Below are positions 15,577-57,498 of a DNA stretch of 64,000 bases, one piece after another. The notes under the pieces were generated by a model that worked only from the letters and a program-made list of their open reading frames with translations, made no database searches and was not told the DNA's origin. Made by a program: the position numbers and the translations under genes. The stretch comes from Colwellia maritima (GTDB lineage: Bacteria; Pseudomonadota; Gammaproteobacteria; Enterobacterales; Alteromonadaceae), in contig NZ_JAKKSL010000002.1 of the NCBI RefSeq assembly GCF_022669015.1, positions 248,001 through 312,000 on the forward strand. Direction: 5' to 3'. Every line of letters begins with the position of its first letter. The stretch's first letter is position 1.

Positions 15577-16865
15577 TTAAGAATTTTTTAGTTTTTGGTA
15601 AATTTCGCCACCAATAAATTGTGCTTTACTAGCTAATTCATGCTGTATACGTATTAACTCATTCCATTTTACCATGCGCTCACTGCGAGTGAACGAACCT
15701 ACTTTCAGTTGGCCTGAATTAGTAGCAACGGCTAAATGACTAATAAAAGCATCTTCAGTTTCACCCGAGCGGGCTGAAACAACAGGTAACCAACCGGCAG
15801 ATTGCGTTAAATGTATTGCATCAATAGTTTCACTGACGGTCCCTATTTGATTCAACTTTATTAAAACACTATTGGCTAATTTGTTTTTAATACCGTGTTC
15901 AATGCGTGTTGGGTTGGTAGTAAATAAATCATCGCCAATAATCTGTACTTTATCGCCAATTTGTTCTGTTAGTGCTTGCCACATTTTATCATCAGTATCA
16001 GCAAAGGGATCTTCAATTGACAAGACATGATATTTTTCACACCAGGTTAATATTTGTTGTAAAAACTCTTCTGAAGTGAAGGATTTTCCATCTAAAGGTA
16101 AATGATATTTATTGTCTTTATATAAATCACTGGCGGCAATATCTAATGATAACGAAACATCTTTACCTGGAATATAGTTCGCTTCCTCAATGGCTTCAAT
16201 AACAAACTCGAATATTTCATCATGAGAATTAAAGCTTGGCCAAAAGCCTCCTTCGTCAGCACAACCACCAATAAATTTCTGGATTTTAGTAATTTCTGGC
16301 CTGCTTGATATACATTGTATGTGACTTCAAGACATTCATCGTAGGTTTTTGCACCATTAACAATTAATAAAAAATCTTGAATATCGGTACGCCACTGAGC
16401 ATGTGCGCCACCACCAACAAGTTGTATCTCGGGTAATGGGATCAAGGTGTTGTCACAATTTATATCTAATGTTTGATACAAAGGTTTGTTCTGATTTTTT
16501 GCTGCTGCACTAGCAACGGCCAAAGAAATCCCTAAAATGGCATTAGCGCCAAGGCGAGATTTGTTTGCTGTACCATCTAGTTCACACATGCTTTGATCTA
16601 TTAGTCGTTGATCGTTAACATTTTGGCCAATGACTATGTTAGCTAAATCGACCTTAATGTGTTTTATTGCTTTTGTAACGGCTTTACCCGCAAAGTATGT
16701 TGAATCACCATCGCGCAATTCTAATGCTTCAAATTGACCAGTAGAAGCACCCGACGGCACCAAACCATAGCCTTTAACGCCGTTTTCTAATGTCACAACC
16801 GCTTCTATGGTAGGTTGTCCGCGTGAATCAAAAATTTGATAAGCATCAATGTCTTTAATTTTCAT
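15577..16865 (-). CDS. Divergent enolase paralogue (one frameshift)
   Basis: Protein of about 428 residues, full length for enolase, beginning MKIKDIDAYQIFDSRGQPT with GASTG and the family-typical C-terminus. The frame breaks near 16280-16300; the continuation reads IGGCADEGGFWPSF. Metal ligands (LSLDIAAS, SIEDPF, IGDDLF), the acid of ADEGG and lysines in VLIKLNQIG and LKVGS are kept. Two canonical active-site positions differ: the Glu of QEF (yeast Glu168) is Asp in DIQDF, and the His of SHRSGETED (yeast His373) is Ala in SARSGETED. The mobile loop after GGxHA is also unusual (QWRTD). It overlaps the kinase gene by 11 bases and follows an aldehyde dehydrogenase, so it looks like a dedicated catabolic enolase acting on a 2-phosphoglycerate-like substrate rather than the glycolytic one. 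Substrate is inferred. Confidence 0.85.
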
Positions 16866-17820
16866 TTTTTATCTCTTCTTGTAAGTCTGTATAAGTTGTT
16901 ATTTGCTTAGTAAATAAAGCCAGTGCTTTTGCTCGAACATGTTGGCGATCTATTTCAGATAAATATTCAACCGGTGATTTTCCGTCAATACGCGCAATCA
17001 TTAACAATGCCGTAATTTTTATAATATGTGCAAAGGCTATTTCACTGAAAAGCTCTTCACCTAGCGCTGATTTATATGCTGTTATAAAGGCGTAGCTTAA
17101 ATCTAATAAGGCGGTTTGTTTAAAGTGAAAAAATTTAATCAATAAATGATGTAGCATGAAGGCAATATCAAATGCCGGGTCGCCATACCAAGCTACTTCA
17201 CAATCAATAATTTTTATATCACCTTGTTTAACGAGTATATTTTTAGGACTGAAATCGCCATGCACCAGACAATATTTATTCTGTTGTATTTGTTTACACA
17301 AGGCTAAAATCGCTTGGCTATGTTCAGGATAAATATCCACTAAGGTCATAAAGTAAGGCGATAACCTTAACTGGTTAAAATTCTCGTCAGAATCAAATAG
17401 TGTTGCAACAACAGGATCTAGCCAACTCTTTTTATGAATAAGCCCTAGTGCTTTGCCAATCAGCTCTGCGGTGTGTATATCAAACTTGCTTTGCATGAGA
17501 TCTTGCTTCCAATCACAGTATTGGTCACCTAAATATTCCATCACAAACAAGTTTTCATTTTCAAAAGAGGCAAGCACTTTTGGCGCATAATCAGGTAGTA
17601 TTTTGTTAAGATACTTAAGGTACCTTTGCTCATACATATTACGATTAGTATCTGCAAACCAATCTTGTTTCACTTTCAATTTGGCTAATGCTTGTTTTAC
17701 CACATAGCTGTGCGAACCATCTCGAACTAAAGCAATATCACAGCTTACCCCGCCAGAAAGCGAAGTAAGTGTGGTATTTTCTGATAGCTCAAAACCTTTG
17801 GATTTGAGTAATTCAATCAT
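16855..17820 (-). CDS. APH-family small-molecule kinase
   Basis: A 321-residue aminoglycoside/choline-kinase-fold phosphotransferase. Visible are a glycine-rich N-lobe loop (SLSGGVSCDIAL), a Lys in YVVKQA, the hinge-like VMEYLGD, the catalytic loop LVHGDFSPKNIL and the metal-binding IIDCEVAWYGDPAFDIA. Members phosphorylate hydroxyl groups of diverse small molecules (choline, methylthioribose, homoserine, sugars). Its 11-base overlap with the enolase paralogue and 11-base gap after the aldehyde dehydrogenase suggest that it phosphorylates the acid made by the dehydrogenase to feed the enolase, for example glycerate to 2-phosphoglycerate. The substrate is an inference from context; no resistance role is suggested. 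Confidence 0.85.
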   Translation of the reverse strand: MIELLKSKGFELSENTTLTSLSGGVSCDIALVRDGSHSYVVKQALAKLKVKQDWFADTNRNMYEQRYLKYLNKILPDYAPKVLASFENENLFVMEYLGDQYCDWKQDLMQSKFDIHTAELIGKALGLIHKKSWLDPVVATLFDSDENFNQLRLSPYFMTLVDIYPEHSQAILALCKQIQQNKYCLVHGDFSPKNILVKQGDIKIIDCEVAWYGDPAFDIAFMLHHLLIKFFHFKQTALLDLSYAFITAYKSALGEELFSEIAFAHIIKITALLMIARIDGKSPVEYLSEIDRQHVRAKALALFTKQITTYTDLQEEIKNEN

Positions 17821-17831
17821 TTGACTACCTT

Positions 17832-19310
17832 CTAACGAATTGATGCAATAGATTGATGACGTAAATAACCTTCAAAAGTTGCCACGCTATTAACGCCACC
17901 ACCGCAACCACTTTGATTACACGCACCATAATTTAAGCCGTATTCAAAAACGTTATGAGCGTTAATCCAGGTATTGCCACCAACCAGTTTATGGGCAAGT
18001 TTAATTGCTTTGTCGCTATCTTTTGTCCAAATACTGTTTGCTAAGCCGTAGTTGTTTTTATTTGCACGATCAATAACTTCATCTTCATCGTTAAATTTTA
18101 ATAAAAAGGCAACTGGGCCAAATATTTCTTCTTGTGCCCATTGGTTGTCGTCGCTGCCGCCGAGCAAAGTAGGCTCAATAAAGTAGCCATTTTTATAATC
18201 ACCTTCGGTTAACCGGTTGCCACCGCAAAGAATAGTCGCGCCTTGTTTTTGAGCATCGTCAATACAGTGAAGCACGCGGTTTAATTGTTTTTCAGTACAA
18301 ATAGGCCCCATTTCTGCGTCTGGGTTGGCTCCGTTGTGTACCTTGGTTGCATTAAAGGTTGCAATGGCTTTTTCAACAAATTGATCATAGATATCTTCAT
18401 GAATATACCAACGAGACGCGGTACAACATACTTGGCCTGCATTTAAGGTGACAGCGCCACACAAACCTTCAACGGCAAGATCTACATCGCTATCGCTGCA
18501 TATAATTGCTGCGCCTTTACCACCGAGTTCAAGTTTTGCCGGCACCAAGTTTCTACCACACACTTCGCCCACATGACGACCCACAGCGGTTGAGCCGGTA
18601 AATGACATTAATTTAATGTTTGTGTTAGAAATTAACGCTTCACCTGCCTCATCACCAGTCCCTGGTAATACGTTAACAACGCCTGCAGGAAAACCTGCTT
18701 CTTGGCAAAGTTTAGCTAAAAATAGGGTTGATAATGGCGTTTCAGACGCGGGTTTAACTACCACGGTATTACCTGCCGCAAGGGCTGGTGCAATACCCCA
18801 AGCACATAAGGTTAAAGGGAAATTCCACGGGAATACGAAACCGCCCACACCATAGGGTATCTTAACTACATGGCTGTCAGTAGTAGTGAGATTATTGTCA
18901 CTGACATATTGATATTCTTGGGCGACATCAGCGAAGTAGGTAAAACAATCTGCGGCAAAAGGAACATCGAACCCTAGTGCTGCTGATATCGGTTTACCAA
19001 CATCAATACATTCTAGTTCAGCTAATATCTGCGCATCTCTGGTGATTAAATTGGCTAATTTACGTAAACACGTTGCTCGATATTCAACACTTTCAGTTGA
19101 CCATGTTTTAAAGGCAATAGCAGCTTTATCTACCGATTCATTGATGTCGTTTGCTGTAGCAAGTGCTATGGTTGCTATCTGTTGAGTTGTTGCCGGATTA
19201 ATAACCTCAACGGTTGAAGAAGAATTAACCCATGAACCGTTTTGGTAAAATGGCAATTGTGTTGGCTCTAAAAAATCCAAAGTAGATTGACTCAGTTCTG
19301 TCGTTTTCAT
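17832..19310 (-). CDS. NAD(P)-dependent aldehyde dehydrogenase
   Basis: Intact 492-residue ALDH-superfamily enzyme. It has FPWNFPLT (catalytic Asn), FTGSTAVGR (cofactor loop), LELGGKGA (general-base Glu) and NAGQVCCTASR (nucleophilic Cys). I place the start at ATG 19310 because GGGGAAAGAA sits directly before it; a start at 19322 would consume that ribosome site. First gene of the leftward ALDH-kinase-enolase operon, divergent from an AraC regulator. Role inferred from neighbours: oxidation of an aldolase-derived aldehyde (glyceraldehyde or lactaldehyde type). Alternative: 3,6-anhydro-L-galactose dehydrogenase, which belongs to the same superfamily and would also fit an agar locus. Confidence 0.92.
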   Translation of the reverse strand: MKTTELSQSTLDFLEPTQLPFYQNGSWVNSSSTVEVINPATTQQIATIALATANDINESVDKAAIAFKTWSTESVEYRATCLRKLANLITRDAQILAELECIDVGKPISAALGFDVPFAADCFTYFADVAQEYQYVSDNNLTTTDSHVVKIPYGVGGFVFPWNFPLTLCAWGIAPALAAGNTVVVKPASETPLSTLFLAKLCQEAGFPAGVVNVLPGTGDEAGEALISNTNIKLMSFTGSTAVGRHVGEVCGRNLVPAKLELGGKGAAIICSDSDVDLAVEGLCGAVTLNAGQVCCTASRWYIHEDIYDQFVEKAIATFNATKVHNGANPDAEMGPICTEKQLNRVLHCIDDAQKQGATILCGGNRLTEGDYKNGYFIEPTLLGGSDDNQWAQEEIFGPVAFLLKFNDEDEVIDRANKNNYGLANSIWTKDSDKAIKLAHKLVGGNTWINAHNVFEYGLNYGACNQSGCGGGVNSVATFEGYLRHQSIASIR

Positions 19311-19504
19311 TTCTTTCCCCAATGCTAATTATTATTGACTCCATCATTCTGCCATTAAGAAATTTAAAAGAAGCGGCAGAAAGTAACCAATGTCAGTCTA
19401 AAATTAGCCAGTTAGTACCATATATCACTTGAACTTTTGTAAAAAGTTAACCATATTGGAGTCCATTTCTTGTGCGTTTAATGTGTTAATTCAATTATTT
19501 TTAT

Positions 19505-20353
19505 ATGAAAGCTATAAAAGAAGATGTGTTGTATCAGTCAGGTTCATTTAGTGCCTACCTTTATGAAGGTAGCTCTTTTGATCATCCTTATCATTTTCAT
19601 ATTGAATATGAAATTGTATTGGTTGATAAAGGGGATGGTAAGTTAATAATGAATGAGCAGGTTTGCGAATTCGAAGAAGGCGACATTTTTATTTTAGGTT
19701 CAAACACCGCCCATTCATTTATCAGCAAACCCGATACCGATAATGTAAGGTCTTTAGTGATTCAATTTAGTGGTACTTGTTTTGGCGAAACGTTTTTTCA
19801 ACTGCCCGAATTTAAAAATATCGGTAAAATGCCGGAAAACTCAAAGTATGGCTTAAGAGTTAAACGCAATAAATCGCCGGTCGGCGAGATGATTGAAAGT
19901 ACATGTGCCTCTAAAGGCGCGTTATCTGTGGTGCATTTGTTAACCTTGCTGACTAATATTAGCCAACTGGATAATATTGAACAGATCATTCCAACGAGTT
20001 CATTTTCTTCTGGGCAGTTAGAGTCACATAAACTTAACGCGGCAATAGACTGGATTAATACCAATTATTTTAGCACTATTCATTTAAATGAAATTGCTAA
20101 AATTACCAATTTAACGAAAAATGCTTTTTGTCGAAGTTTTAAAAAAGCGACGGGCAAAACTTTCTTGCAGTATTTAAATGATAAACGTATAGAAGAAGCG
20201 GCGAAGAAATTAATTCAGACTGATGATTCAATTTTAAAAGTGGCTTACGATGTTGGCTTTTCGAATATTAGCAGTTTTAATCGTTACTTTAAAAAAGCCA
20301 AGGGAACGTCACCCACTTTGTTTAGAGATAACTTTCTCAAGATGGTAAATTAA
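19505..20353 (+). CDS. AraC-family regulator with cupin domain (first)
   Basis: A 282-residue transcription regulator. An N-terminal AraC-type cupin (HPYHFHIEYEIVLVDKGDG, GDIFILGSNTAHSF) should bind a sugar, and two HTH motifs form the C-terminal AraC domain (LNEIAKITNLTKNAFCRSF and VAYDVGFSNISSFNRYF). Divergent from the aldehyde dehydrogenase operon with 194 bases between, and convergent with the second AraC gene. Probably controls the ALDH-kinase-enolase operon. No clear Shine-Dalgarno precedes ATG 19505. Confidence 0.92.
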   Translation: MKAIKEDVLYQSGSFSAYLYEGSSFDHPYHFHIEYEIVLVDKGDGKLIMNEQVCEFEEGDIFILGSNTAHSFISKPDTDNVRSLVIQFSGTCFGETFFQLPEFKNIGKMPENSKYGLRVKRNKSPVGEMIESTCASKGALSVVHLLTLLTNISQLDNIEQIIPTSSFSSGQLESHKLNAAIDWINTNYFSTIHLNEIAKITNLTKNAFCRSFKKATGKTFLQYLNDKRIEEAAKKLIQTDDSILKVAYDVGFSNISSFNRYFKKAKGTSPTLFRDNFLKMVN

Positions 20354-20375
20354 ATTATTTCATTTAATTGATGAT

Positions 20376-21233
20376 TTAATTTGCAATCAATCCTAATGAT
20401 TTACGATATAAAGCAGGCGTTGTACCCATCATTTTTTTAAATCGCCGATGAAAAAAAGCCATATTATTGTAGCCACATAAAAAAGCGATATCTTCAACTT
20501 GTTTGTCACTGTTTCTCAGTAAAATACAGGCTTTACTGATACGAAGTTCATTAAGATAAGCGGTAAATGTTTTTTGAAATGTTTTCCTGAAAAACTTTGA
20601 AAATGAAGAAGGTGTTAAGTAAGTTATGCTAGCTAAATCAGCGGCGGAAATCTGATTTTGATAGTTATTCTCAACAAAATCTATTAACTTATCAATACGT
20701 TTAGACACTTGGTGATTGATAGCAAAATCCGCTTCATGACTAATTGTTTCGGTGTCGTAAGCCGAGAGTGTGTGTAAAAGATCGACAAAATGCCATAAGC
20801 GTTCAAACGGCTGAAGTTGATTGAGAGACTTTATTTTATCTATTACGTTAGCCGCTGCTTTAGTGCTAAATAATACCCCTTTATGGCTTTGGTTTAATAA
20901 ATAAGCAATGGCATGAAATTCAGGATGCTCTAACCAGTTTTCGCCTAATAAATTTTCATCCCATTGAATAAATACAGATTCTACCGTTTCGCCTTTAATT
21001 GTTTCATTTCGCCAACAATGAGGTAAATTTTGCCCAACAAGCACTAATTCGCCTTCACAAAAATTTCTAATAGTATTCCCTATATATAAAATACCTGTAC
21101 CTTTTGTGATATATGTCAACTCCCATTGTGGATGATAATGCCACGGCGAATTAAACTGTAACCCTTCATGTTTAGCACAATGAAAAGAGTGCCTAAAGTC
21201 TTGTGTGATTTGTTCTAGAACCGCTTTCATCAA
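20376..21233 (-). CDS. AraC-family regulator with cupin domain (second)
   Basis: A 285-residue AraC regulator with the same layout: cupin (SPWHYHPQWELTYITKGTG, LVLVGQNLPHCWR) and C-terminal double HTH (LASITYLTPSSFSKFFRK, IAFLCGYNNMAFFHRRFKK). It is divergent from the PfkB kinase operon across a 150-base spacer, so that operon is its likely target. Start at 21233 or at the adjacent second Met. The two AraC genes converge, each facing one half of the catabolic island, which suggests that the two operons respond to the same or successive sugar metabolites. Confidence 0.92.
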   Translation of the reverse strand: MMKAVLEQITQDFRHSFHCAKHEGLQFNSPWHYHPQWELTYITKGTGILYIGNTIRNFCEGELVLVGQNLPHCWRNETIKGETVESVFIQWDENLLGENWLEHPEFHAIAYLLNQSHKGVLFSTKAAANVIDKIKSLNQLQPFERLWHFVDLLHTLSAYDTETISHEADFAINHQVSKRIDKLIDFVENNYQNQISAADLASITYLTPSSFSKFFRKTFQKTFTAYLNELRISKACILLRNSDKQVEDIAFLCGYNNMAFFHRRFKKMMGTTPALYRKSLGLIAN

Positions 21234-21396
21234 GTTTTATTCTGTTTGAATTATGCTTTTTATTAAAGCTAATTTAAGTCAATTAGTCAATTTATTGAAT
21301 AGGGCAAAATAGTACATGTTTACCCAAAATAAGTGTTTATAAAGAAATAGCTTTTTATTTTATTGTTATAACCAGTATTTAACGGTGGGAAAAGCA

Positions 21397-22302
21397 ATGA
21401 AACGCAAAGTTATTGTTTCAGGGTTAAATGTTGTTGATTTACTCATAACATTACCTAAAGAAATAAATATTGGTGGTAAACAACAAGTTGATGATTTAAT
21501 TATTCAAGGTGGCGCCCCTGCAGGTAATGCTGCTAGCGTTATGGCGCAGCTTGGTTTGCAAACGTCATTTATTGGCTATTACGGTGAAAGTACCCTAAAT
21601 AAAATTGCGTTAGGTGAACTTGAGCGCTGTAATGTTGACACGTCATTAATGATTAGAAATGAAAATCATGATCCTGCGGTTGCGTTGGTAGAAGTTAATC
21701 CAATCAATGGTGAACGAACCGTTTTCTATTCTTTAAACAATTATCAAGCACTCGAAAAGGAAGATATTAACAATGATCTTCTTGACAATACTCAGCCGGT
21801 TTTTGTCGATGGTTATGATATTGAAGGCAATATTGCCTTGCTTACCTTGGCTAAAGAAAGAAATATTCCTACCGTTTTAGATATAGAAACAGGGGAAAGA
21901 GCGCAGCTAATAGAGATGCTTGCTTTAGGAAGCCACTGTATTTTACCCCTAGAAGGCGCGCAGTTTATTGCCCAAAGCCATGATATGAATGTGTGCTTTG
22001 AATATTTGGCAAGCATTACCTCTGGGCAAATTATCATTACCGATGGTGGTAATGGTAGTTGGGCCAACACACCACAAGGTATTCATCATCAAGCTGCGTT
22101 TAAAACAAATGTAGTTGACACCACAGGTTGCGGTGATGCTTTTCATGGCGCGTACGCGTTTGCACTTTTATCTGGCAGAGATTTACCTGCACGTATGCAG
22201 TTTGCATCAGCTTATGCCTCAATTGTTGCTCAATACCTTGGTGGCCGTACGTTTCACCCAAGCGAAGAGCAAGTTGTTAATTTTATCAATTCTAATTATT
22301 AG
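21397..22302 (+). CDS. PfkB-family sugar kinase
   Basis: A 301-residue ribokinase/PfkB-family kinase. The N-terminal GGxxxN-like region is IQGGAPAGNAASVMAQLG and the C-terminal signature is VDTTGCGDAFHGAYAFAL with the catalytic Asp and anion hole. I prefer ATG 21397 because GGTGGGA lies upstream; a GTG at 21385 is in frame. First gene of a rightward operon with an isomerase and a class II aldolase; 8 bases separate it from the isomerase. By position it should phosphorylate the ketose made by the isomerase, at C1 if the aldolase is to release unphosphorylated glyceraldehyde, or at C6 if it makes glyceraldehyde 3-phosphate. Substrate not readable from sequence. Confidence 0.92.
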   Translation: MKRKVIVSGLNVVDLLITLPKEINIGGKQQVDDLIIQGGAPAGNAASVMAQLGLQTSFIGYYGESTLNKIALGELERCNVDTSLMIRNENHDPAVALVEVNPINGERTVFYSLNNYQALEKEDINNDLLDNTQPVFVDGYDIEGNIALLTLAKERNIPTVLDIETGERAQLIEMLALGSHCILPLEGAQFIAQSHDMNVCFEYLASITSGQIIITDGGNGSWANTPQGIHHQAAFKTNVVDTTGCGDAFHGAYAFALLSGRDLPARMQFASAYASIVAQYLGGRTFHPSEEQVVNFINSNY

Positions 22303-22310
22303 GACTCATT

Positions 22311-23819
22311 ATGACCGTAGATTTTTTATCACGAAAGGGCGTTGTTGAAGATGAAATGAACGCACTGATTGCTGCGCCGAAAAAAGAAAACAAGTACCCA
22401 TTGGTTTAATTGGTATTGGTTTTGAAATGCATTTTGACTGGGCAAAAGCAAAAGAGAGTTTTACCGAAGCTGTGAGCGAAACAACGCAATTGATACCAAA
22501 AAACGCTCAGCTGCTACATGGCACAACGCCAGTTCAAACTAAAGACGACATCTTAGCGATGCTAAATGATTATAAAGCGGTAGGCGTAAAAGGGATCATT
22601 ATCTATCAAGCCTCTTATATTGCGGGTGATTTAGCATTAGCTATTGCTACATGGCTTCGCGAAAACGACATGCCGATACTAAGTTGGTCACATACGGAAG
22701 TAACGGGGGGAAATTTAACGGCGAACCGTTTTTGTGGGCAAAACTTTTTATTGAATATTTTATCCTCTATGCAAATTAAATATTCTTGGATTTTTGCTGA
22801 CTTAGGATCTGACGAGTTAAAAACACAGTTAAATCGTTTTGCGAGAGTAGTTTGCGCGAAAGCAGAAATGAAATATTCTAAATTGTTAATGATCGGCGGT
22901 ATGCGAGTACCCGGTTTTTACGATTGTGAACTCAATGAAATGTCAATTGCCAGACACTTTGGTTTGGATATTGAGCGTATTGATATTGAAACTATATGGC
23001 AATACAGCAAAAAATTTGATGCTGAGCAAGTGAATCCTGTGGTACAGAAACTGATCAATTCGCCAAGCTGTACTCAATGTCAGGTTAACGACAATGAACT
23101 ATTTTTATCGGTTCGACTGGGCGGCAATTGCCGATTATACGCGTGTTAATGGTTACCTTGGCGTTGCACTAAAAAACTGGCCTGAATTGTTCGAGCGTTA
23201 TGGTATTGCCGGCGATGGTGCAGGTGGTTTGGTACAAGATTTAGGTATTCCTGTTGCCGATGAGTCGGATATGGGCGGCTTATTAACCATGGTTACTTTT
23301 AACGAGTTATGCCAAGGGAAAAGCTTACCTACCTTAATGGATATGTCTTATTTAGATCCCAAAGGCGACAAAGTAGGTATGTGGCATTGCGGTGGTTCAG
23401 CCACTAAATTGATTAAAGAGGGTAGCCAATTTCAAGTACGTAATCACAGTATTTTAGATAATTACGATGAAGATACCTCGTGCGGTATGTTGTTTGAATT
23501 TTTACAAGAGTTAGGGCCAGTAACGATTGCCAAATACCAATACCCGCACGCCTCATCTATTTTAGCGTTTGAAGGCGATATTGTTGAATCGACCATGCGC
23601 TTTAGAGGTTGTTATGGTGAAGTTCAACCTAAAGATACGGATACCCGTTCAATTATCAACACCGTATTAAGTTCAGGCCTTGACCATCATTGGATTGTTG
23701 GTCGAGGGTATTTTATGGAAGATTTACATGAATTTAACCACTGGATTGGGGTAACTAAAACCCCGATGATGCCGTCGCAAATTAGCGGACGTAGCGTAAC
23801 TAAAAATATGGATTACTAG
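22311..23819 (+). CDS. L-fucose-isomerase-like ketol isomerase (two frameshifts)
   Basis: About 502 residues, resembling the L-fucose/L-arabinose isomerase superfamily. The N-terminal part reads PIGLIGIGFEMHFDWAKAKES and the C-terminal half holds ADESDMGGLLTM, LMDMSYLDPKGD, MWHCGGSA and GLDHHWIVGRG, which supply the acidic and His residues expected of a divalent-metal aldose-ketose isomerase. The frame slips in an A-rich run (about 22380-22391) and near a T5 run (about 23095-23105); both joins restore a continuous protein. L-fucose isomerases also act on D-arabinose and on L-galactose, which is L-fucose with a 6-hydroxyl, so L-galactose from agar or porphyran is an attractive substrate. That assignment is inference. 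Confidence 0.8.
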
Positions 23820-23829
23820 GAAAATTATA

Positions 23830-24658
23830 ATGATGAAATTAACTGACTTATTAAAACAATATCGCCGCGAGCATAAATGTTTAGGGGGATTCAATGTCAA
23901 TGATATTTACGATATGCATGCTGTTGTTGATGCGGCTAATATCATGGAACAACCCGTAATGATGATGACATACGGCCCTGTAGTTGAACTAAACTCAACC
24001 TACTTATGTCGTAAAATGGTTGATGGTTTTTTGCCCCAATCTAAACATGGAATTTACCTTCATTTAGATCACTGTACTTCGGTAGATTTATGCAAGCAAG
24101 CAATTGATGACGGATATGATTCAGTCATGATTGATGGCTCACAAGAAAGTTTAAAAAAGAATATTGCCATGACCAAAGAAGTGGTTGAATATGCTCGTAG
24201 TGCAGGCGTGGCAGTAGAAGCTGAAATTGGTAAAATAATGGGACGTGATGTGCAAGTAAACTCTGAAGAGGACTACTTGGCAAGTGTTGCCGATGTTGTC
24301 GCCTTATATGAAGAAGCGGATCCAGACTCTATTGCTGTTGGCATTGGTACGGCTCATGGCTTTACGCCAACAACCCCTAAAATTCATTTTGATCGTCTTA
24401 ACGAAATTGCAAACGCTGTACCAAAGACCGCTTGTTTTACATGGGGGAACTGGCATTCCAGATGCCGATATACAAAAATCAATTCCTATGGGGATCGCCA
24501 AAATAAACGTCGGTACCATAGTACATACTACTTATATGCGTGCTATGTATGAGGAAATAGGAAAAGATATTCAAGGAGCCTATCCTCCGTTTATCATTAA
24601 AAATATTTTACCTGAACTAACTGAAGTGATTTGTTCAAGGTTACGTGCTATTTCTTAA
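23830..24658 (+). CDS. Class II ketose-bisphosphate-type aldolase (one frameshift)
   Basis: About 276 residues of the zinc-dependent class II FBP/tagatose-BP aldolase family. Visible are LGGFNVND, the zinc-binding LHLDHCTS, VMIDGSQ, VEAEIGKI, IGTAHG and, after the frame break near 24430-24440, LVLHGGTGIPDADIQKSI and KINVGT. The break is beside a run of Gs in the sequence coding LHGGTG. Starts at ATG 23830 or 23833, about 10 bases after the isomerase. Should cleave a phosphorylated ketose to DHAP plus an aldehyde, closing the isomerase-kinase-aldolase route of this operon. Confidence 0.88.
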
Positions 24659-24783: not shown

Positions 24784-25593
24784 TTAGTTTGAATTGGTTG
24801 TTTCTATTTGATCAAAGAACCAGAGCGTTTTTGCTAAATTATTATGCCAATATGGCCATTCGTGACTGCCGGTTAATGCTTCAAACTTATAGTTAACTCC
24901 AAGGCTGTCGAGTGATTCACATAACAGTAAATTACTTTGAAATAGGTCGTCACTCTCACCGCAATCAAAACGTATTGGCGGTAATGATTTAGCATTTTTA
25001 TCAAACCAAAAATTGAGTTCAGCTTCTTGTTCAAAATCACATTGATAATCTGTTATTGGGTTTTCAATAAATGTTTGCAAATCATCTAATGACGTTACAG
25101 ATGAATGAGCTGAAATACCTTTAAATTTTTCAGGGTATTTTGCCCCTAACCTTAAAGCACCGTATCCGCCCATGGAAAGGCCACAAATGTAGACATTACT
25201 TTGCCGGCTTAACCCGTCAATGTTTTCAATAACGCCATTAATTACATCTTCGACAATCCAAAAGCGCTCAAAGTCTCCATGTTGAGTTAACGGAAGATAC
25301 CCAGAACCCTCCCATAAACTACCGTCAGAAGGCATCACCAGTACAAAATCATTTAAACCTTGTTGCTTTAACTGTTCATATACAAGATGAGCGCCACCGA
25401 GTTCCATCCAGACCCAATGAGCACCATACACACCATGTAATAATACTATAATGGGAGTGTTGTTACTTAGGTGTTTTGAGTGGTAAATAGTGATATTTTC
25501 ACGTTTGCCAAGAAAACTACTATACAAGGTTAATGTTGTTGTATTTTCCTGGGTATAAGCAGAATTAGATTTTTCTACGCGTAAAATTGCCAT
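24784..25593 (-). CDS. Alpha/beta-hydrolase esterase (esterase D / S-formylglutathione hydrolase-like)
   Basis: A 269-residue PF00756-type esterase. The oxyanion region is VLLHGVYGAHWVW, the nucleophile elbow is ICGLSMGGYGALRLG (GxSxG), the acid is in CGESDDLFQ and the His in GSHEWPYW. There is no signal peptide, so it is cytoplasmic. It is the last gene of the P450-ferredoxin-reductase-alcohol dehydrogenase set, 5 bases after the dehydrogenase. Its family includes S-formylglutathione hydrolase, which would complete formaldehyde oxidation to formate. A carbohydrate esterase role is an alternative. Function is assigned by context. Confidence 0.85.
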   Translation of the reverse strand: MAILRVEKSNSAYTQENTTTLTLYSSFLGKRENITIYHSKHLSNNTPIIVLLHGVYGAHWVWMELGGAHLVYEQLKQQGLNDFVLVMPSDGSLWEGSGYLPLTQHGDFERFWIVEDVINGVIENIDGLSRQSNVYICGLSMGGYGALRLGAKYPEKFKGISAHSSVTSLDDLQTFIENPITDYQCDFEQEAELNFWFDKNAKSLPPIRFDCGESDDLFQSNLLLCESLDSLGVNYKFEALTGSHEWPYWHNNLAKTLWFFDQIETTNSN

Positions 25594-25598
25594 AGGAT

Positions 25599-26724
25599 TT
25601 AAGCCTGTTCTTCCGTTGATGAATCAATCACGATCACGCCCTTAGCGATTCGCCCATTTAGCATATCGTCAAATCCGTCAGCAAGGGTTTCTAAGGTATA
25701 GGTTTTCGTGACTAATTCTTCAAGTTTCATGTCGCCGTTGTCATATAATTGAAGAATACGGTCAAAGTCACGGGCAGGGTTACACATGCCATAAAGTGGA
25801 TTGATATAAATTTTATCCCATTCAAACAATTCACAATCAAAATTAATGCGTTGTTCTATACCACTGACTTGAACTGCGGTACCCGCATTACGAATTAGCG
25901 CAAGTGGGGCAGACCCTAATCCGGAATGGCAGTACATTCAAAGGCGTAATCTGCACCACGGCCATTCGTTAATGCGCGCACTTGAGCTTTAACGTTAACA
26001 AAATCAATATCGTCTTTAGTTGAGATTACACCGTGAGTTGCACCAAATGTTTTGGCTTGCTCAATACGATCTTCGTTTAGATCAATAGCAATAATTTTTG
26101 TAGCACCGGATTGTTTTGCTGCTTGAATAACATTTAAACCCACGCCACCACAGCCAATAACACAAACGCTACTTCCAACGCCAACTTTGGCAGCGTTAAC
26201 CACAGAACCCCGCCCGTCATTACCCCACAACCAACGATAGACGCTGCGGTGTAGGGTATTTGACTATGTATTTTTATTGCAGCTTCTGCTTTAACCACAG
26301 CATATTCACACATAGTGCCTAAATGAAAAGAGCGCTCAATGGGGGCTTTGTTATGAATTGTACTTTCGACATGTGCATGTCCGGCTAATTCACAGCCACA
26401 AACGGGAGAGTTCTGCTCGCATATGTGCAAATTACCCTCGTGACATTGAAAGCATTTACCACAGGGGATGGCCCAATTTAAAATAACTTTGTCGCCAATA
26501 GCTAAGTCAGAAACACCTTCACCGATGCTTTCAACAATTCCTGCTCCTTCATGCCCCACAATAAAGGTTTTATCCCAATGCTGAATTGAATCCCAATCTG
26601 TGTGACAAATACCAGAGGCTTTAATTTTAACACGTACCTCGCCAATACCTGGCTTGCCAATATTTACCGTTGTTAATTCAAACTTTCCTTTTCCATTTGA
26701 AATAACTGCTTTTGCTTTTATCAT
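25599..26724 (-). CDS. Zn-dependent alcohol / formaldehyde dehydrogenase-like (two frameshifts)
   Basis: About 375 residues of the medium-chain Zn alcohol dehydrogenase family, class III-like. Catalytic zinc residues appear in SGICHTDWD and VGHEGAG. The structural zinc cysteines are in PCGKCFQCHEGNLHIC. The nucleotide fold is VIGCGGVGLNVIQAAK with DLNEDR after it. Frame breaks occur near 26205-26215 (C-rich) and 25918-25922 (at CCGG); joining gives GVMTG-RGSVVNAAKVG and CTAIP-GLGSAPLALI. Start chosen at 26724; an upstream Met at 26766 adds 14 unlikely residues. In marine bacteria with P450 demethylases, a co-clustered dehydrogenase of this type has been linked to formaldehyde removal, so that role is proposed. 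Confidence 0.87.
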
Positions 26725-26880
26725 TGTAATACACTTCTTGGTATTATATTTTTCTGATTTAATCATTCAATTCTATTAACTACGACTCTGTAGACGACGG
26801 TTGTAAACAAGAATAAAAATGAAAAAACGATCAATATATGCTTTGTTTTAAGAATTTAATAACACTGTTGCCTTATCAAT

Positions 26881-28128
26881 TTATTGACTTAATGTTTCTA
26901 GGCTCAGTGCTATATCGCTATTAGATAATGAATTTTTATTAATTATCATTTGGTTTTTTATTATTTTTGTGCCTAAAACATAGGCTTTAGCATGATTAAT
27001 GGTGTCAACTGAAAGTAATTCTTCATCTTTAAAATACCAGACAGAAAATTTTTCTTCATCATCAGCTTCTTTTCGAACAATTAAATTGTTGTAGCCTGTT
27101 GATAAACCAACAATCTGTAATTTTATGTTGAATTGATCAGACCAAAACCAAGGTAAAGCATCATAACAAGCATCTTGTTTGCATATAGATAAAGCGGCAA
27201 CTTTGGCTTGATCTACCGCATTTTGTACTGACTCTAGTCGCAACCAACAGTTATAATGTTTGTTGTGGTGGTAAGCACAATCGCCAATAGCATAAATGTT
27301 CTGGTGACTTGTTTGGCATTGGTCATTAACTACAATGCCATTATCAATGGTTAATCCCGCTTGTTGAGCTAGCGCTTGATTAACTTTAACGCCAACACCA
27401 ACAATAATTATATCATTTGGGTATTCACTGCCATTTTCACAAACAATTGTTTGAGTATTTTCTGTGGTTTTAATTGCTTGTACATTTTGTTCTGTACTAA
27501 TAGTAACGCCATTATTTTCATGTAATTGGTGAAAAAAAGCTGACATTTCAGGTGAAGTAACACGGGCAAGCAAACGAGGTTCTCGTTCTAGTACGCTAAC
27601 ATCTCCCCCCATTTTTTTTATAGATGCGGCGGTTTCAAGGCCTATATAACCGCCGCCAATAATAACAACACGTTTTTGTTCACTGGCCAGAAAAGCGGAA
27701 CGAATATTTTCGACATCTGCTTGGGTACGTAATGTAAACAGATTCTGAGCAGTGTCGATACCAGTAATGGGCGGAATGAATGGACTAGCACCTGTTGCCA
27801 AAATAAGTTTGTCGTAACTCAGTAAGTCACCGTTTTGTAACGTGATGTTGTTATTACTACTGTCAATTTTACTCACTTGCTTACCTAGCATTAGTGTAAT
27901 ATTGTTTTTTTCATAACTCGCGATGGGTTTTAATAGGGGAGGGGTAACCTCATTACTATTGGCTAAATAAGCTTTTGATAAGGGTGGTCGATGATAAGGA
28001 ACCGCAGGGTCACTATCAATCATAATGATTTCACCTTGCCAACCCTCTTTACGAAGCGCAAAAGCCGCGGTAACACCACTATGGCTAGCACCAATAATAA
28101 TACAGGTTTGAGTAACTGATAATGGCAT
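26881..28128 (-). CDS. NAD(P)H-ferredoxin reductase for the P450
   Basis: Intact FAD-dependent pyridine nucleotide-disulphide-type reductase of about 415 residues, putidaredoxin-reductase class. It shows the FAD loop IIGASHSGVTAAFALR, the PYHRPPLSKAYL segment, the NAD(P) loop VIIGGGYIGLETAASI and the second FAD motif IYAIGDCAYH. I prefer ATG 28128, since AAGGATAAAACA precedes it; ATG 28143 is also in frame. Sits between the 2Fe-2S ferredoxin and the dehydrogenase, and should pass electrons from NAD(P)H to the ferredoxin for the P450. Confidence 0.93.
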   Translation of the reverse strand: MPLSVTQTCIIIGASHSGVTAAFALRKEGWQGEIIMIDSDPAVPYHRPPLSKAYLANSNEVTPPLLKPIASYEKNNITLMLGKQVSKIDSSNNNITLQNGDLLSYDKLILATGASPFIPPITGIDTAQNLFTLRTQADVENIRSAFLASEQKRVVIIGGGYIGLETAASIKKMGGDVSVLEREPRLLARVTSPEMSAFFHQLHENNGVTISTEQNVQAIKTTENTQTIVCENGSEYPNDIIIVGVGVKVNQALAQQAGLTIDNGIVVNDQCQTSHQNIYAIGDCAYHHNKHYNCWLRLESVQNAVDQAKVAALSICKQDACYDALPWFWSDQFNIKLQIVGLSTGYNNLIVRKEADDEEKFSVWYFKDEELLSVDTINHAKAYVLGTKIIKNQMIINKNSLSNSDIALSLETLSQ

Positions 28129-28165
28129 TGTTTTATCCTTCATAGTCTATTTTGGTGGAATAATA

Positions 28166-28474
28166 TTAAACAGCAACGGTTAAAATAATGCCGTCAATTT
28201 CATCAGATACATCTATCTGACAGCATAGTCGACTATATTCGTTAACATTGTCATCAAGGGATAACATATCCTGTTCAATTTCACTTGCCGCACCTATTTT
28301 ATGTTGGTGCTCTGGTGCAACGTAAACATGGCAGGTTGCGCAAGAACAAACCCCACCGCAGTCACCGTCAATACCCTCAATACCATTTTCAACCGCAAGT
28401 TGCATGACTGACCCAGACTCTGCTTCAACAGTGATCTCGTCGTTGCTTTGTGTAATAAATGTAACTTTAGCCAT
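28166..28474 (-). CDS. 2Fe-2S ferredoxin, putidaredoxin type
   Basis: A 102-residue soluble ferredoxin. Cluster ligands are Cys39, Cys45 and Cys48 in GDCGGVCSCATCHVYV, plus Cys85 in LCCQI, the vertebrate-type/adrenodoxin spacing CX5CX2C...C. It lies between the P450 and its reductase, giving a complete class I three-component P450 system in one operon. Confidence 0.95.
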   Translation of the reverse strand: MAKVTFITQSNDEITVEAESGSVMQLAVENGIEGIDGDCGGVCSCATCHVYVAPEHQHKIGAASEIEQDMLSLDDNVNEYSRLCCQIDVSDEIDGIILTVAV

Positions 28475-28535
28475 TGTTTTTCCTTTTTAATTTTAATTGG
28501 TTTATCTTTAACGTTAGTTTTTTACGATGATCTTA

Positions 28536-29693
28536 TTAACGGTTGAATGAAACGTTGAGTGAGTGAAACCCAACCTTACGTTGAAACTGCTGTAAATCTT
28601 CTATGTTTTCTTCTTTATTGATAATATCAATAGAGCTTGTTTTTTCTGATAACGAGCCTATTAAAATGGCAAGTAATTGTCTTGCATGAGTAGCACCTAA
28701 ACAATTATGGGTACTGAAACCAAAACCCACGTGTGGATTTAATTTACGATCAAGCACTACATCATTAGGGGTTTCAAATACAGAAGCATCACGGTTTGCT
28801 GACGCCCAAGACAGTGAAATTCTGCTGTTAGCTTTTGCCGCATGTTCGCATACTTGCGTGTCTTCTGTTACTACTCTACCCATTTGAGTTAATGGAGAGA
28901 AATAGCGCACAAGTTCTTCTACTGCCTTGGTCGTTATTTCGGGTTCTTTCTTCAAGCGTTCTAACGATTCAGGGTGTTCTGCTAAATACGCAACTGTATT
29001 GGTAACCGCATTAATTATTGTGTCTCGACCACCTGCAAACGTTAGACTTAATACACCTTTTACCTCTTCTTTTGTAAGAGGTTTACCATTGACTTCACTT
29101 CCGAGTAAAAATGAATATAAGTCTTCACCTGGCGTAGCAATCGCTTTTTCTATTTGTTCATCTAAATAATCGTAAAGAACGTCGGCTTTATCTTTGTTTA
29201 ATTCTGTGTCTTTACTACGAAAAACATGTGTTCCCCAACTAATCCAAAGTTTAGATTCTTCATAAGGGGTGTTTAATAATAAGGTTAATGCCCGTGATTG
29301 TAGTTTAAGTGAAAAATCTTCGACGACTTCAATAGTATCCAAACTAACCGCTTCATCAATCAGTTCATCAATGATCTTTTTGAGTTTACGTTGGTAGTCA
29401 GCCTGCAGTGGTCGTTTAAACCATGGTTCTATTAATTTTCTATAGGAACCATGTTCCGGTGGATCCAGTTCAAATGGAATTTGGCGTGTATCTCTAATGG
29501 CTGCTTCAGAAGGCACGACGATCCGCCCAACTTCTTCTCCACCAGATTGAAATGTTTTCCAATTATGAGCACATTTGCGTACATCTTTTAAGCCTAAAAC
29601 CATTGTTACTGGATCGTTTTGATCATCAATTGTACTCGTACCCTCGTTTAGTCGAGCTTGTTCGAATGGATCAGGGAAAGTGCTTGTTGTCAT
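28536..29693 (-). CDS. Cytochrome P450, probable 6-O-methyl-D-galactose demethylase
   Basis: Intact 385-residue soluble bacterial P450. It has the oxygen-binding I-helix FAGGRDTIINA, the K-helix ExxR in EELVRYF, and the heme-ligand loop GFGFSTHNCLG with Cys331. The RQIPFELDPPEHGSYRKL segment is typical of soluble class I P450s. It heads an operon with ferredoxin and reductase inside an agar/porphyran locus. Marine bacterial P450s in that setting have been shown to demethylate 6-O-methyl-D-galactose, giving D-galactose and formaldehyde. The exact CYP subfamily and substrate are inferred from context. Confidence 0.92.
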   Translation of the reverse strand: MTTSTFPDPFEQARLNEGTSTIDDQNDPVTMVLGLKDVRKCAHNWKTFQSGGEEVGRIVVPSEAAIRDTRQIPFELDPPEHGSYRKLIEPWFKRPLQADYQRKLKKIIDELIDEAVSLDTIEVVEDFSLKLQSRALTLLLNTPYEESKLWISWGTHVFRSKDTELNKDKADVLYDYLDEQIEKAIATPGEDLYSFLLGSEVNGKPLTKEEVKGVLSLTFAGGRDTIINAVTNTVAYLAEHPESLERLKKEPEITTKAVEELVRYFSPLTQMGRVVTEDTQVCEHAAKANSRISLSWASANRDASVFETPNDVVLDRKLNPHVGFGFSTHNCLGATHARQLLAILIGSLSEKTSSIDIINKEENIEDLQQFQRKVGFHSLNVSFNR

Positions 29694-38799: not shown

Positions 38800-39870
38800 T
38801 TAAATCAGCGATAATTTAAAAGGGTAACTTTGGTTACCGCGCCATTGACCCACATATAAGTTACCTTCGTCATCAACACACATACCATGGCAATGTTTGA
38901 ATACATCCCAAGTGCTTGACATGGTTTGTAATTTACCATTTTGATAAACTGGCTCTGTGCCACCTAAATTAGCAACAACCTTGTTATTTTTATCAAATAC
39001 ACTGATAAAACCAGAATCTTCAGCATTTTCATCATTAATATGTGACCAACATACCGGTGCAAAAAAATTATCACCACTAAATACCGGACCATGAATATAA
39101 GCGCCCGGCGTATCTATACGGCCGCGATAACTGCCATCAAAATTAAATAGTTTTAAGCACTGCTCCCAACGAGAGCTAACAATTAAATGAGTGTCATCTG
39201 GATTACGAATATCAACACCTATACCATGTGTGTTGATTAAGTTGTAATTTGTGTCTTCATTTTTCTGCCCTCCCCAATGGTGAATATAACGGCCATGACA
39301 ATCGTATTGAATGACAAAGTCTGAACCATAGCCATCAGTAACATAAATATCACCGTTAGGTGCTACGGTAATATCTGAAGGACGAAAGGGCATATCTGGC
39401 TGATAAATACCAATGGTCATTGGATGACCAATGGTATAAACCAAACGACCATCAAGGGTAAGTTTGGCGACAAAACCTTGTTGAGCAATTACCTTATTGT
39501 AATGAGAATCCCACTCATCGGTGCTTTTTCCATCCCAATGACGATTTAATACCCGACCATGATCGACAACATATAAAAATTCTTCGCCATTCTCATTCAC
39601 AATTTCTATGGAGTGCGCTCCAGGAAATTCACTGCCCCAAGCTTCAGCCAAACTGCCATCTTTGTTATAAACAATAAAGTTGTTTTTCGTGTTATCCGTT
39701 AACATGATAATACGACCTTTCGCGTCTATTACCATATCGTGGCAGTTTTCCACAGGGGTTTGGTTTGGGTCAAGTTGTCCCCAGTGAGCATCTACCTTAT
39801 ATTGAAAATTGCCTTGGCCAACAATTAATCCGTGTGGGTCTTTTTGCGACTTTGGAAAATAGCTCGTCAT
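38800..39870 (-). CDS. NHL-repeat six-bladed beta-propeller protein
   Basis: A 356-residue protein with repeated NHL/YWTD-like blades, for example HDMVIDAKGRIIMLTDN, PSDITVAPNGDIYVTDGYGSD, HGIGVDIRN and HGMCVDDEGNLYVGQW. No signal peptide is visible, so it appears cytoplasmic, unlike many propellers in polysaccharide loci. Only 1 base separates it from the PhyH dioxygenase gene upstream, so they are co-transcribed and probably co-function. Propellers of this type can be lactonases, lyases or binding scaffolds; I cannot choose between them. Confidence 0.85.
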   Translation of the reverse strand: MTSYFPKSQKDPHGLIVGQGNFQYKVDAHWGQLDPNQTPVENCHDMVIDAKGRIIMLTDNTKNNFIVYNKDGSLAEAWGSEFPGAHSIEIVNENGEEFLYVVDHGRVLNRHWDGKSTDEWDSHYNKVIAQQGFVAKLTLDGRLVYTIGHPMTIGIYQPDMPFRPSDITVAPNGDIYVTDGYGSDFVIQYDCHGRYIHHWGGQKNEDTNYNLINTHGIGVDIRNPDDTHLIVSSRWEQCLKLFNFDGSYRGRIDTPGAYIHGPVFSGDNFFAPVCWSHINDENAEDSGFISVFDKNNKVVANLGGTEPVYQNGKLQTMSSTWDVFKHCHGMCVDDEGNLYVGQWRGNQSYPFKLSLI

Positions 39871-39871
39871 A

Positions 39872-40633
39872 CTAAGATGCTTGCCAATTTATTATTGCAT
39901 CGTCATCGACACGGTTTAATGGATAATAAACTGCTTCATTTTCTTGCCAAGGTTGATTGGTCATAGCGTTATAAGCACTGATCATAGACCATCGCGGATG
40001 ATCAGATTTATTTTGGTTTGATTTATGTAATAAATTACAGTGAAAAAACAAAGTATCGCCAGGTTCTAATTCAACAAAAACTAACTCGTGATCTTTCATT
40101 GCTTGTTCAACAAACATTAATTCAGCGCCTTTTTGATCACCGGTTTTATTGTGATTTAAACGGCCCAATTTATGTGAGCCTTTTAATACCTGTAAGCAAC
40201 CATTTTCTTTCGTTGCCTTATTAATAGCAATCATGCAGCTTATCGCTTTCGGATGAAGCATTAGGTTGTCGTGATGCCAGTAACCAAAATCTTGATGCCA
40301 TTCCCAAGCACCACCAACCTTTGGTTCTTTCATCATAACTTTGGTACTCGTGTGATACATTTCTTCACCGATAATCGCTTCACATGAATCAACTAAACGA
40401 CGACTGCGTGAAAACATGCTATATAAATCGTCAGTGGTTTCTTGCCAAATACATACTTTACTGACGGCACCTGTACCATCTTTTTGAAGCCAAGCATTGT
40501 TATGCAAACGAGGATCATTAAAAGCGGTTTCAGTTAAACGATCTATTTCAGCTTTATTGAAATAACCACGGGCAATAACGTAACCGTCATCATTGAATTG
40601 TTTAATTTGTTCGGGTGATAATTTTATGCTCAT
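39872..40633 (-). CDS. Phytanoyl-CoA dioxygenase-family Fe(II)/2-oxoglutarate oxygenase
   Basis: A 253-residue PhyH-family enzyme. The iron facial triad is His113 and Asp115 in EWHQDFGYWH plus His203 in FFHCNLLHKS, with Arg214 in HPRWS as 2-oxoglutarate anchor. The N-terminal FNDDGYVIARGYFNKAEI is the family opening. It leads a two-gene operon with the NHL propeller inside the agar locus. PhyH enzymes hydroxylate diverse small molecules, and hydroxylation of a methyl ether would be a second, P450-independent demethylation route. That role is speculation; the family assignment is firm. Confidence 0.9.
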   Translation of the reverse strand: MSIKLSPEQIKQFNDDGYVIARGYFNKAEIDRLTETAFNDPRLHNNAWLQKDGTGAVSKVCIWQETTDDLYSMFSRSRRLVDSCEAIIGEEMYHTSTKVMMKEPKVGGAWEWHQDFGYWHHDNLMLHPKAISCMIAINKATKENGCLQVLKGSHKLGRLNHNKTGDQKGAELMFVEQAMKDHELVFVELEPGDTLFFHCNLLHKSNQNKSDHPRWSMISAYNAMTNQPWQENEAVYYPLNRVDDDAIINWQAS

Positions 40634-54462: not shown

Positions 54463-54474
54463 ATTGTTTACAAT
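54463..54474. promoter_or_regulatory. Operator-like box ATTGTTTACAAT
   Basis: Exact 12-mer, 32 bases before the FG-GAP protein start at 54506. Two further exact copies lie at 60726 and 60795. Core TTGTTTACAA fits GntR/FadR-type operators. Confidence 0.6.
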
Positions 54475-54505
54475 TAATAGTTTTCAATATGTCAAAAGGT
54501 TATTT

Positions 54506-57418: not shown

Positions 57419-57453
57419 ATCACACTCGTTAATTTTGATGTTGAATATAAAAT

Positions 57454-57485
57454 AGCAGTGTAAAAGTTACACTGCTTTTGTTTTA
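57454..57485. terminator. Bidirectional terminator, GNAT / FG-GAP 2
   Basis: Perfect 10-base stem AGCAGTGTAA / TTACACTGCT with loop AAG, followed by TTTGTTTT, between convergent genes. Confidence 0.8.
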
Positions 57486-57498
57486 CAGATTTTAATTA

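Follow-up and report, generated by a model that had tools for sequence, protein, structure and literature searches.

Several described pathways share part of their chemistry with the one proposed here for a set of eight genes at positions 15577-24658 of a 64,000-nucleotide stretch of the Colwellia maritima genome (contig NZ_JAKKSL010000002.1; the whole stretch is called the window below). The L-fucose isomerase, fuculokinase and fuculose-1-phosphate aldolase pathway converts an aldose to a ketose, a ketose 1-phosphate, and then dihydroxyacetone phosphate (DHAP) plus a hydroxyaldehyde, an order that the set in the window shares together with the isomerase fold; the set differs, however, in its PfkB kinase and its class II aldolase of the fructose-bisphosphate aldolase type, in an isomerase lying outside the Pfam models, and in a three-carbon aldehyde that would carry a group allowing conversion to phosphoenolpyruvate (PEP). 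In the sulfo-EMP2 pathway (SqvD, SqiK, SqiA) an isomerase and a kinase likewise act ahead of a class II aldolase (PMC12890257), whereas here an aldehyde dehydrogenase (ALDH), an APH-fold kinase and an enolase paralogue are added and no TauE gene is close by. The oxidative L-galactose/L-glucose pathway (Lgu) of Luteolibacter also catabolises L-galactose, but by a dehydrogenase route via D-tagaturonate, D-altronate and 2-keto-3-deoxygluconate (KDG), and the part of its description that is available names no isomerase, L-glycerate or enolase paralogue (PMC12632266). The fungal route through 2-keto-3-deoxy-L-galactonate (L-KDGal), as far as the accessible text goes, has the L-glyceraldehyde intermediate in common and reduces it to glycerol, whereas oxidation onward to PEP is proposed here (PMC11219438). 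The upstream half of the locus resembles known isomerase-kinase-aldolase pathways, and the kinase-enolase end is the new part. The open-access literature, searched mostly without subscription papers, yielded neither an isomerase route for L-galactose nor an L-glycerate 2-kinase, nor an enolase that uses 2-phospho-L-glycerate; searches there on L-glycerate kinase, L-2-phosphoglycerate, sulfolactate kinase and phosphosulfolactate lyase returned CpgD lipid work only, and those on sulfosugars, enolase residues, L-galactose/porphyran and L-tagatose returned no such pathway. A first-pass annotation of this DNA knew of no described pathway of this composition.

The locus consists of two operons and two regulator genes, with the following proposed roles:

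15577..16865, minus strand: enolase paralogue (fragments 16143-16865 and 15577-16023; Pfam Enolase_N and Enolase_C), proposed 2-phospho-L-glycerate enolase
16855..17820, minus strand: APH-fold kinase (Pfam APH), proposed L-glycerate 2-kinase
17832..19322, minus strand: aldehyde dehydrogenase (Pfam Aldedh), proposed L-glyceraldehyde dehydrogenase
19505..20353, plus strand: AraC regulator 1 (Pfam AraC), divergent from the ALDH-kinase-enolase operon
20376..21233, minus strand: AraC regulator 2 (Pfam AraC), divergent from the PfkB-isomerase-aldolase operon
21385..22302, plus strand: PfkB-family sugar kinase (Pfam PfkB), proposed L-tagatose 1-kinase
22311..23819, plus strand: aldose-ketose isomerase of the FucI/AraA fold (two frame changes), proposed L-galactose isomerase
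23830..24658, plus strand: class II aldolase (fragments 23830-24552 and 24284-24658; Pfam F_bP_aldolase), proposed L-tagatose-1-phosphate aldolase

The two AraC genes are convergent, tail to tail, with 183 or 152 bases between the start of each and that of the operon diverging from it, and the kinase frame (16855-17820) overlaps that of the enolase (16143-16865). That six enzyme families stand beside paired AraC genes, as first annotated, is borne out by Pfam and, for the isomerase, by its predicted fold. Gene families, frames, gene order, conservation, the invariantly altered enolase pocket and the placement in agar/porphyran clusters can be read directly from the DNA.

The eight genes are interpreted, with somewhat better than even confidence, as an inducible pathway for L-galactose released from porphyran or agar. 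The isomerase would convert L-galactose to L-tagatose, the PfkB kinase would form L-tagatose 1-phosphate, and the class II aldolase would cleave this to DHAP and L-glyceraldehyde; the ALDH would then give L-glycerate, the APH-fold kinase 2-phospho-L-glycerate, and the enolase paralogue PEP, the last two steps bypassing the ordinary enolase that this genome also encodes on another contig. The reaction order of the first-pass annotation (aldose, ketose, ketose 1-phosphate, DHAP plus glyceraldehyde, glycerate, 2-phosphoglycerate, PEP) is supported, as is PEP as the likely end product.

Frame changes break the enolase, isomerase and aldolase genes of the window, a point absent from the first account. 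Intact relatives span the enolase (16865-15580, one frame change) and the isomerase (22311-23816, two frame changes), with identities of 86 and 96% for the enolase fragments, 87% for the kinase, and 90 and 91% for the isomerase fragments; the intact close relatives of all three appear to lie on one 9,397-base metagenome contig. Because further window genes are split as well (e.g., the alcohol dehydrogenase at 25599-26766), assembly indels seem likelier than gene decay as the source of the frame changes, and a pseudogene reading is also made less likely by the intactness of the close relatives.

The kinase-enolase pair and its altered pocket

When GTDB contigs were scanned with an alignment of the kinase, at least 571 of 590 stretches were found to encode relatives, and the best 80 of these were kept. 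These 80 loci span, by record title, Verrucomicrobiota, Acidobacteriota, Pseudomonadota, Bacteroidota, Chloroflexota, Actinomycetota and Armatimonadota. Gene calling recovered the enolase paralogue at 63 of them and the kinase gene at 66; where either is missing, the contig is short or the gene caller overlooked the gene. Both genes were called in 53 loci, sharing a strand in 49, and 48 of those 49 pairs lie within 500 bases. Plasmid records extend the pair to Rhodococcus and two haloarchaea.

The paralogue has the Enolase_N and Enolase_C domains in common with glycolytic enolase, and the 60 best Protein Data Bank (PDB) matches of the Vibrio hannami homologue are all enolases, but its leaving-water site is altered. 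Every one of the 64 aligned paralogues has Asp in place of the QEF-motif Glu, and Ala (59) or Gly (5) in place of the SHRSGE-motif His. These positions presumably correspond to Glu168 and His373 of yeast enolase, which with Glu211 hold the leaving (catalytic) water. Asp and Ala are also present in the window's enolase fragments and in all 10 copies inspected for the motif, of which two are haloarchaeal; the nearest database relatives carry Asp in 120/120 and Ala or Gly in 119/120 (one being without a match to the His pattern), and one of the 120 is without a match to the DEGG pattern. By comparison, both Glu and His are retained in all 11 housekeeping sequences that passed the parser (from 20 enolase loci, the genome's own plus 19) and in 3/3 further enolases from paralogue-bearing genomes. 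Nearby changes among the 64 paralogues include Gly to Ala (62), Ala to Trp (58) and Thr to Val (60). The 63 tabulated paralogues nevertheless keep the residues that in enolase serve as metal ligands, both catalytic Lys, the phosphate-site Arg-Ser, and the acid Glu, which we take to be yeast Glu211. To our knowledge, ordinary enolase is among the most conserved enzymes and is specific for one enantiomer, the D form. Judging from these residues, the substrate of the paralogue probably keeps the carboxylate, 2-phosphate and alpha hydrogen, and differs around C3 or in its C2 configuration.

A pathway for plain D-galactose, in which D-tagatose 1-phosphate would lead to D-glyceraldehyde and D-glycerate and the enolase would be a divergent duplicate acting on 2-phospho-D-glycerate, would draw on the same enzyme classes and on a main sugar of agar and porphyran. 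It is regarded as very unlikely given galT, galK and a probable galE in the genome, one or more additional Enolase_C matches in each of the 20 genomes examined, and the invariant replacement of two leaving-water residues, which would be unexpected for a plain duplicate. The proposal that a distinct enolase subfamily and the APH-fold kinase together make PEP from 2-phospho-L-glycerate, or from another non-standard 2-phospho acid, as a mirror-image end of glycolysis is judged about evenly balanced. The same even weighting applies to two further parts of that proposal, namely that the module serves general L-glycerate assimilation from L-sugars, and that its upstream routes (isomerase-kinase-aldolase, oxidative dehydratase plus aldolase, or diketo-acid hydrolase) are swapped freely. 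It counts against the L configuration that the enolase changes enlarge the site accommodating the C3 group when the geometry is D, and that alone they predict no L specificity. The first-pass idea of glycerate salvage by the pair is sharpened in this proposal, and salvage of plain glycerate is set aside. The substrate in question, 2-phospho-L-glycerate, is listed as a commercially available reagent in the accessible part of one paper (PMC13228409).

Agar and porphyran context

The window also encodes GH2 and Agarase_CBM proteins, a sulfatase, a KDGal-kinase and a P450, and at a distance of 50-60 kb beyond its end, or 90-100 kb away from the gene set, are a split porphyranase gene, a GH43-type gene that is presumably GH117-like, and genes for an aldose epimerase, galT, galK and a probable galE, so that agarase, porphyranase, sulfatase and galactosidase-family genes were all found around the set. 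Next to the aldolase gene is a system outside the proposed pathway:

24784..29693, minus strand: esterase, alcohol dehydrogenase (fragments), ferredoxin reductase-type flavoprotein, and cytochrome P450

This group resembles the published 6-O-methyl-D-galactose demethylation set, and its homologues also flank the kinase-isomerase-aldolase operon in the flavobacterial locus L197. In the flavobacterial genome G1324, AraC-PfkB-isomerase-aldolase genes stand between homologues of the P450, flavoprotein, alcohol dehydrogenase and esterase on one side and, on the other, a GH2 gene 63% identical to the window's with agarase-like, transporter, mandelate-racemase-family, ALDH and sulfatase genes.

According to the available part of the source, porphyran yields D-galactose, 6-O-methyl-D-galactose, 3,6-anhydro-L-galactose and L-galactose 6-sulfate, and the 6-O-methylgalactose route is that of a P450 (PMC10033563). 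Since D-galactose (galT-galK) and 6-O-methylgalactose (P450) are routed otherwise, L-galactose is left over and is by elimination the likeliest sugar, as was first suggested. All of the substrates are inferred, as are the L configuration, the inducibility of the genes and the direction in which the pathway runs. L-fucose was rejected as the sugar, its aldehyde giving lactate with nothing to eliminate, so that the kinase and enolase would idle. A D-hexose substituted at C6 (6-O-methyl-D-galactose or D-galactose 6-sulfate), from which the enolase paralogue would eliminate methanol or sulfate at the level of a 3-substituted 2-phosphoglycerate, is assigned a very low probability. Such sugars are present in red-algal galactans, and the changes of His to Ala, Glu to Asp and Ala to Trp would suit a bulkier leaving group in the D configuration, but a P450 set of the 6-O-methylgalactose-demethylating type is adjacent in both the window and G1324, a sulfatase gene is present in the window, and sugars of this kind would hardly account for the occurrence of the kinase-enolase pair in soil and rhizosphere.

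The L-galactose pathway would meet a second agar sugar at L-glyceraldehyde. L-KDGal is described, in the accessible text, as an intermediate of bacterial 3,6-anhydro-L-galactose breakdown that fungi cleave to L-glyceraldehyde (PMC11219438). Routes from 3,6-anhydro-L-galactose and from L-galactose would thus both give L-glyceraldehyde, which would account for ALDH-kinase-enolase genes in agar clusters with or without the isomerase, and the module could suit clusters that lack it. In Microbulbifer HZ11 the ALDH-kinase-enolase genes begin 280 bases from a porphyranase (PF18206, PF18040), beside agarase, MFS transporter, SMP-30 lactonase and sulfatase genes, and the SftI-like isomerase is absent from that genome. 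In the Vibrionaceae genomes G1099 and G1144, an operon for kinase, isomerase, aldolase, alcohol dehydrogenase and symporter is separated from Agarase_CBM genes by 0.5 and 4.2 kb. Among 217 Vibrionaceae genomes the isomerase occurs in 5, Agarase_CBM in 6, and both in 3 (one-sided Fisher p 1.2e-4, uncorrected for kinship), a value that overstates independence given how closely the gene content of G1099 resembles that of G1144. Isomerase carriers include organisms with the names agarivorans, agarilyticus, Agaribacterium, Aliagarivorans and carrageenivorans.

Several observations on the same genomes weigh against the assignment to porphyran and agar. G1099 and G1144 are without the enolase paralogue (the triose could be reduced to glycerol there), 2 of the 5 Vibrionaceae isomerase carriers lack Agarase_CBM and 3 of the 6 Agarase_CBM carriers lack the isomerase, and the carriers include fucoidanivorans and many without agar-type names. 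GH29, the published family of porphyran alpha-L-galactosidase, was not found in the C. maritima genome or in any of 8 Vibrionaceae, and was found in 3 of 16 genomes (Flammeovirga, Flavivirga and the verrucomicrobial G251). Of five Flavobacteriaceae isomerase loci viewed (20-40 kb each, with neighbours named only by similarity to reference genes), one is in a porphyran cluster. Each of the two modules does occur by itself in agar/porphyran clusters.

Homologous GH2 proteins (44-68% identical; L108:21917-24457, L195:13079-15589, L198:6920-9400) are encoded close to the isomerase operon in three Bacteroidota genomes, those of Persicobacter, G1418 and G1324, and this recurring GH2 is a candidate for the enzyme freeing the sugar. 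FG-GAP/UnbV_ASPIC proteins (with Big_2 in some) are encoded beside agarase genes in the window (54464-58922) and in a Vibrionaceae genome (L184:9969-13073), and a homologue adjoins a flavobacterial isomerase operon (L198:1-2472). A PhyH-type oxygenase gene adjoins that of an NHL-repeat protein in the window (38800-40633), and homologues of the two (24.6% and 29.8% identical) are side by side in G1099 (L188:7407-9420).

The isomerase and a sulfosugar alternative

The isomerase fragments of the window match no Pfam model at E 0.001, and the intact V. hannami homologue matches no Pfam family at E 0.1, which places it outside the FucI sequence domains. The fold predicted for an intact relative is the AraA/FucI fold, with both matched about equally and no separation of AraA from FucI by the fold search; of the FucI-like isomerase first annotated, the fold stands and membership of Pfam's FucI sequence family does not. 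The sole NCBIfam match of the fragments is the sulfoquinovose isomerase SftI (NF048012), at 59.5 and 69.0 bits, and the best score for this model across 20 other genomes is 178.6 bits, below the curated cut-off of 700 bits.

That the only family match is a sulfoquinovose isomerase speaks against L-galactose and for a sulfosugar route of the sulfo-EMP2 type, in which a 6-sulfohexose would give DHAP and sulfolactaldehyde, then sulfolactate and 2-phospho-3-sulfolactate, from which the enolase paralogue would release PEP and sulfite. The best PDB matches of the V. hannami aldolase (7ncc, 8q57, 7nc7 and 8q58) are, we assume, sulfofructose-1-phosphate aldolases, SqiK is presumably of the PfkB family, and the enolase changes open the C3 site. 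SqvD, SqiK and the class II aldolase SqiA form the published sulfo-EMP2 set, as far as the available text goes (PMC12890257). A gene of D-2-hydroxyacid-dehydrogenase type accounts for 7 of 101 scanned neighbours, at several kinase loci (the scan covered 101 of 205 listed neighbours, from which the 25 commonest families were taken), and a CtBP gene lies near the kinase in several loci; the former would fit (S)-sulfolactate, and both would suggest a D-configured acid at those loci, again counter to the L-galactose pathway.

The likeness to sulfoquinovose pathways noted in the first pass is thus real in the SftI match and the enzyme order, but the scores are far under the cut-off. The sulfite exporter TauE is the usual companion of sulfite-releasing sulfonate pathways; TauE-family genes occur in 20 of 20 genomes, but none of the 20 has one on the paralogue's contig at a distance of 50 kb or less, several of these contigs being short. 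Neither a sulfonate transporter nor a sulfoquinovosidase was seen among the identified neighbours, many neighbours being unnamed, and the placement in porphyran/agar clusters also argues against a sulfosugar. Most paralogues bear an Arg near the site, but the Flammeovirga, Flavivirga, Microbulbifer and Persicobacter forms are without it. A sulfosugar route ending in PEP and sulfite would surprise even more, fits worse than L-galactose, and is considered unlikely.

Distribution of the gene set and other entry routes

All six enzyme genes of the proposed L-galactose pathway are present in seven other genomes, from Vibrionaceae (V. hannami, G1121 and G1137), Alginatibacterium, and three Bacteroidota (Persicobacter, Flammeovirga and Flavivirga). 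In V. hannami ten genes stand in line, encoding a sugar-binding protein, ATPase, permease, isomerase, PfkB kinase, aldolase (frame broken near the start), DUF4432-like protein (a weak match), ALDH, kinase and enolase. G1121 and G1137 have the same core, with an SSF symporter in place of the ABC transporter in G1137. In Persicobacter the six genes, every frame intact, form a pair of divergent blocks accompanied by a single AraC gene, and in Flammeovirga, Flavivirga and Alginatibacterium the two blocks are located apart. At a verrucomicrobial locus (L035) the genes in line include those for isomerase, ALDH, kinase and enolase; PfkB and aldolase genes were not identified there. Co-conservation of the two operons, as first proposed, holds for these seven genomes, and each operon is also found without the other. 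A chance cluster is ruled out by conservation in several phyla. AraC regulator 1 is 58% and 62% identical to the AraC proteins beside the isomerase operons of V. hannami (L119) and Alginatibacterium (L118), and AraC regulator 2 is 49% identical to that of the flavobacterial porphyran-cluster copy (L197) and 41% to that of L152.

V. hannami has two PfkB-isomerase-aldolase sets (L152, L119), one with an alcohol dehydrogenase and SSF symporter, the other with the ABC transporter, DUF4432-like protein, ALDH, kinase and enolase. The window resembles the first set in its upstream genes and the second in its downstream genes.

A close kinase was found in none of 245 other genomes of the window genome's family, where other matches reached at best E 3.6e-11 and 23% identity. 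Matches occur in 2 of 393 other genomes of the order (53% identity) and 5 of 368 of the class (34-38% identity), and because of this near-absence the set looks horizontally acquired.

Other neighbours of the kinase-enolase pair point to differing entry routes. In Rhizobium a PEP carboxylase gene is two genes upstream of the kinase, fitting PEP as the putative product. In Paracoccus and Roseibium the pair is followed by a hydrolase whose nearest family is 2,4-didehydro-3-deoxy-L-rhamnonate hydrolase (scores of 352 and 342 bits, respectively, against a cut-off of 500) and which acting on an L-hexose would give L-glycerate directly, with ALDH not needed; no annotated ALDH was found within 7 kb in Paracoccus or in the 21 kb examined in Roseibium. 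Dehydratase and aldolase genes surround the pair in Haladaptatus and Halomarina. Two acidobacterial loci (L072, L054) have a D-lyxose-isomerase-family gene upstream, with ALDH, kinase and enolase, and in one of them (L072:2197-12294) genes for this isomerase, PfkB, ALDH, kinase, enolase and an FAD/Fe-S oxidoreductase form one line on one strand.

On Rhizobium, Rhodococcus and Sphingobium plasmids (L104, L105, L160) the pair occurs with a dehydrogenase (CtBP in two) and a cupin, among varying fumarylacetoacetate-hydrolase, VOC/dioxygenase and PEP carboxylase genes, probably representing another entry route into the module. In four loci from Opitutaceae or other Verrucomicrobiota (L050:895, L056:1490, L061:6097, L064:6293), the gene immediately upstream of the kinase codes for a protein of ~1190-1280 residues. 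A distant kinase homologue on an Enterobacter plasmid (L106:9938-10993) is accompanied by no annotated enolase; its cluster, perhaps a biosynthetic one, also contains genes for a U32 peptidase, an aminotransferase, an iron-containing redox enzyme and transport.

The first interpretation of this DNA is, overall, partly supported. If the L-galactose pathway is correct, it would provide a route for a major porphyran sugar, and the altered enolase with its partner kinase would constitute a second path to PEP, distinct from the first in stereochemistry or in chemistry, with such enolases hidden in databases under the name 'phosphopyruvate hydratase'.

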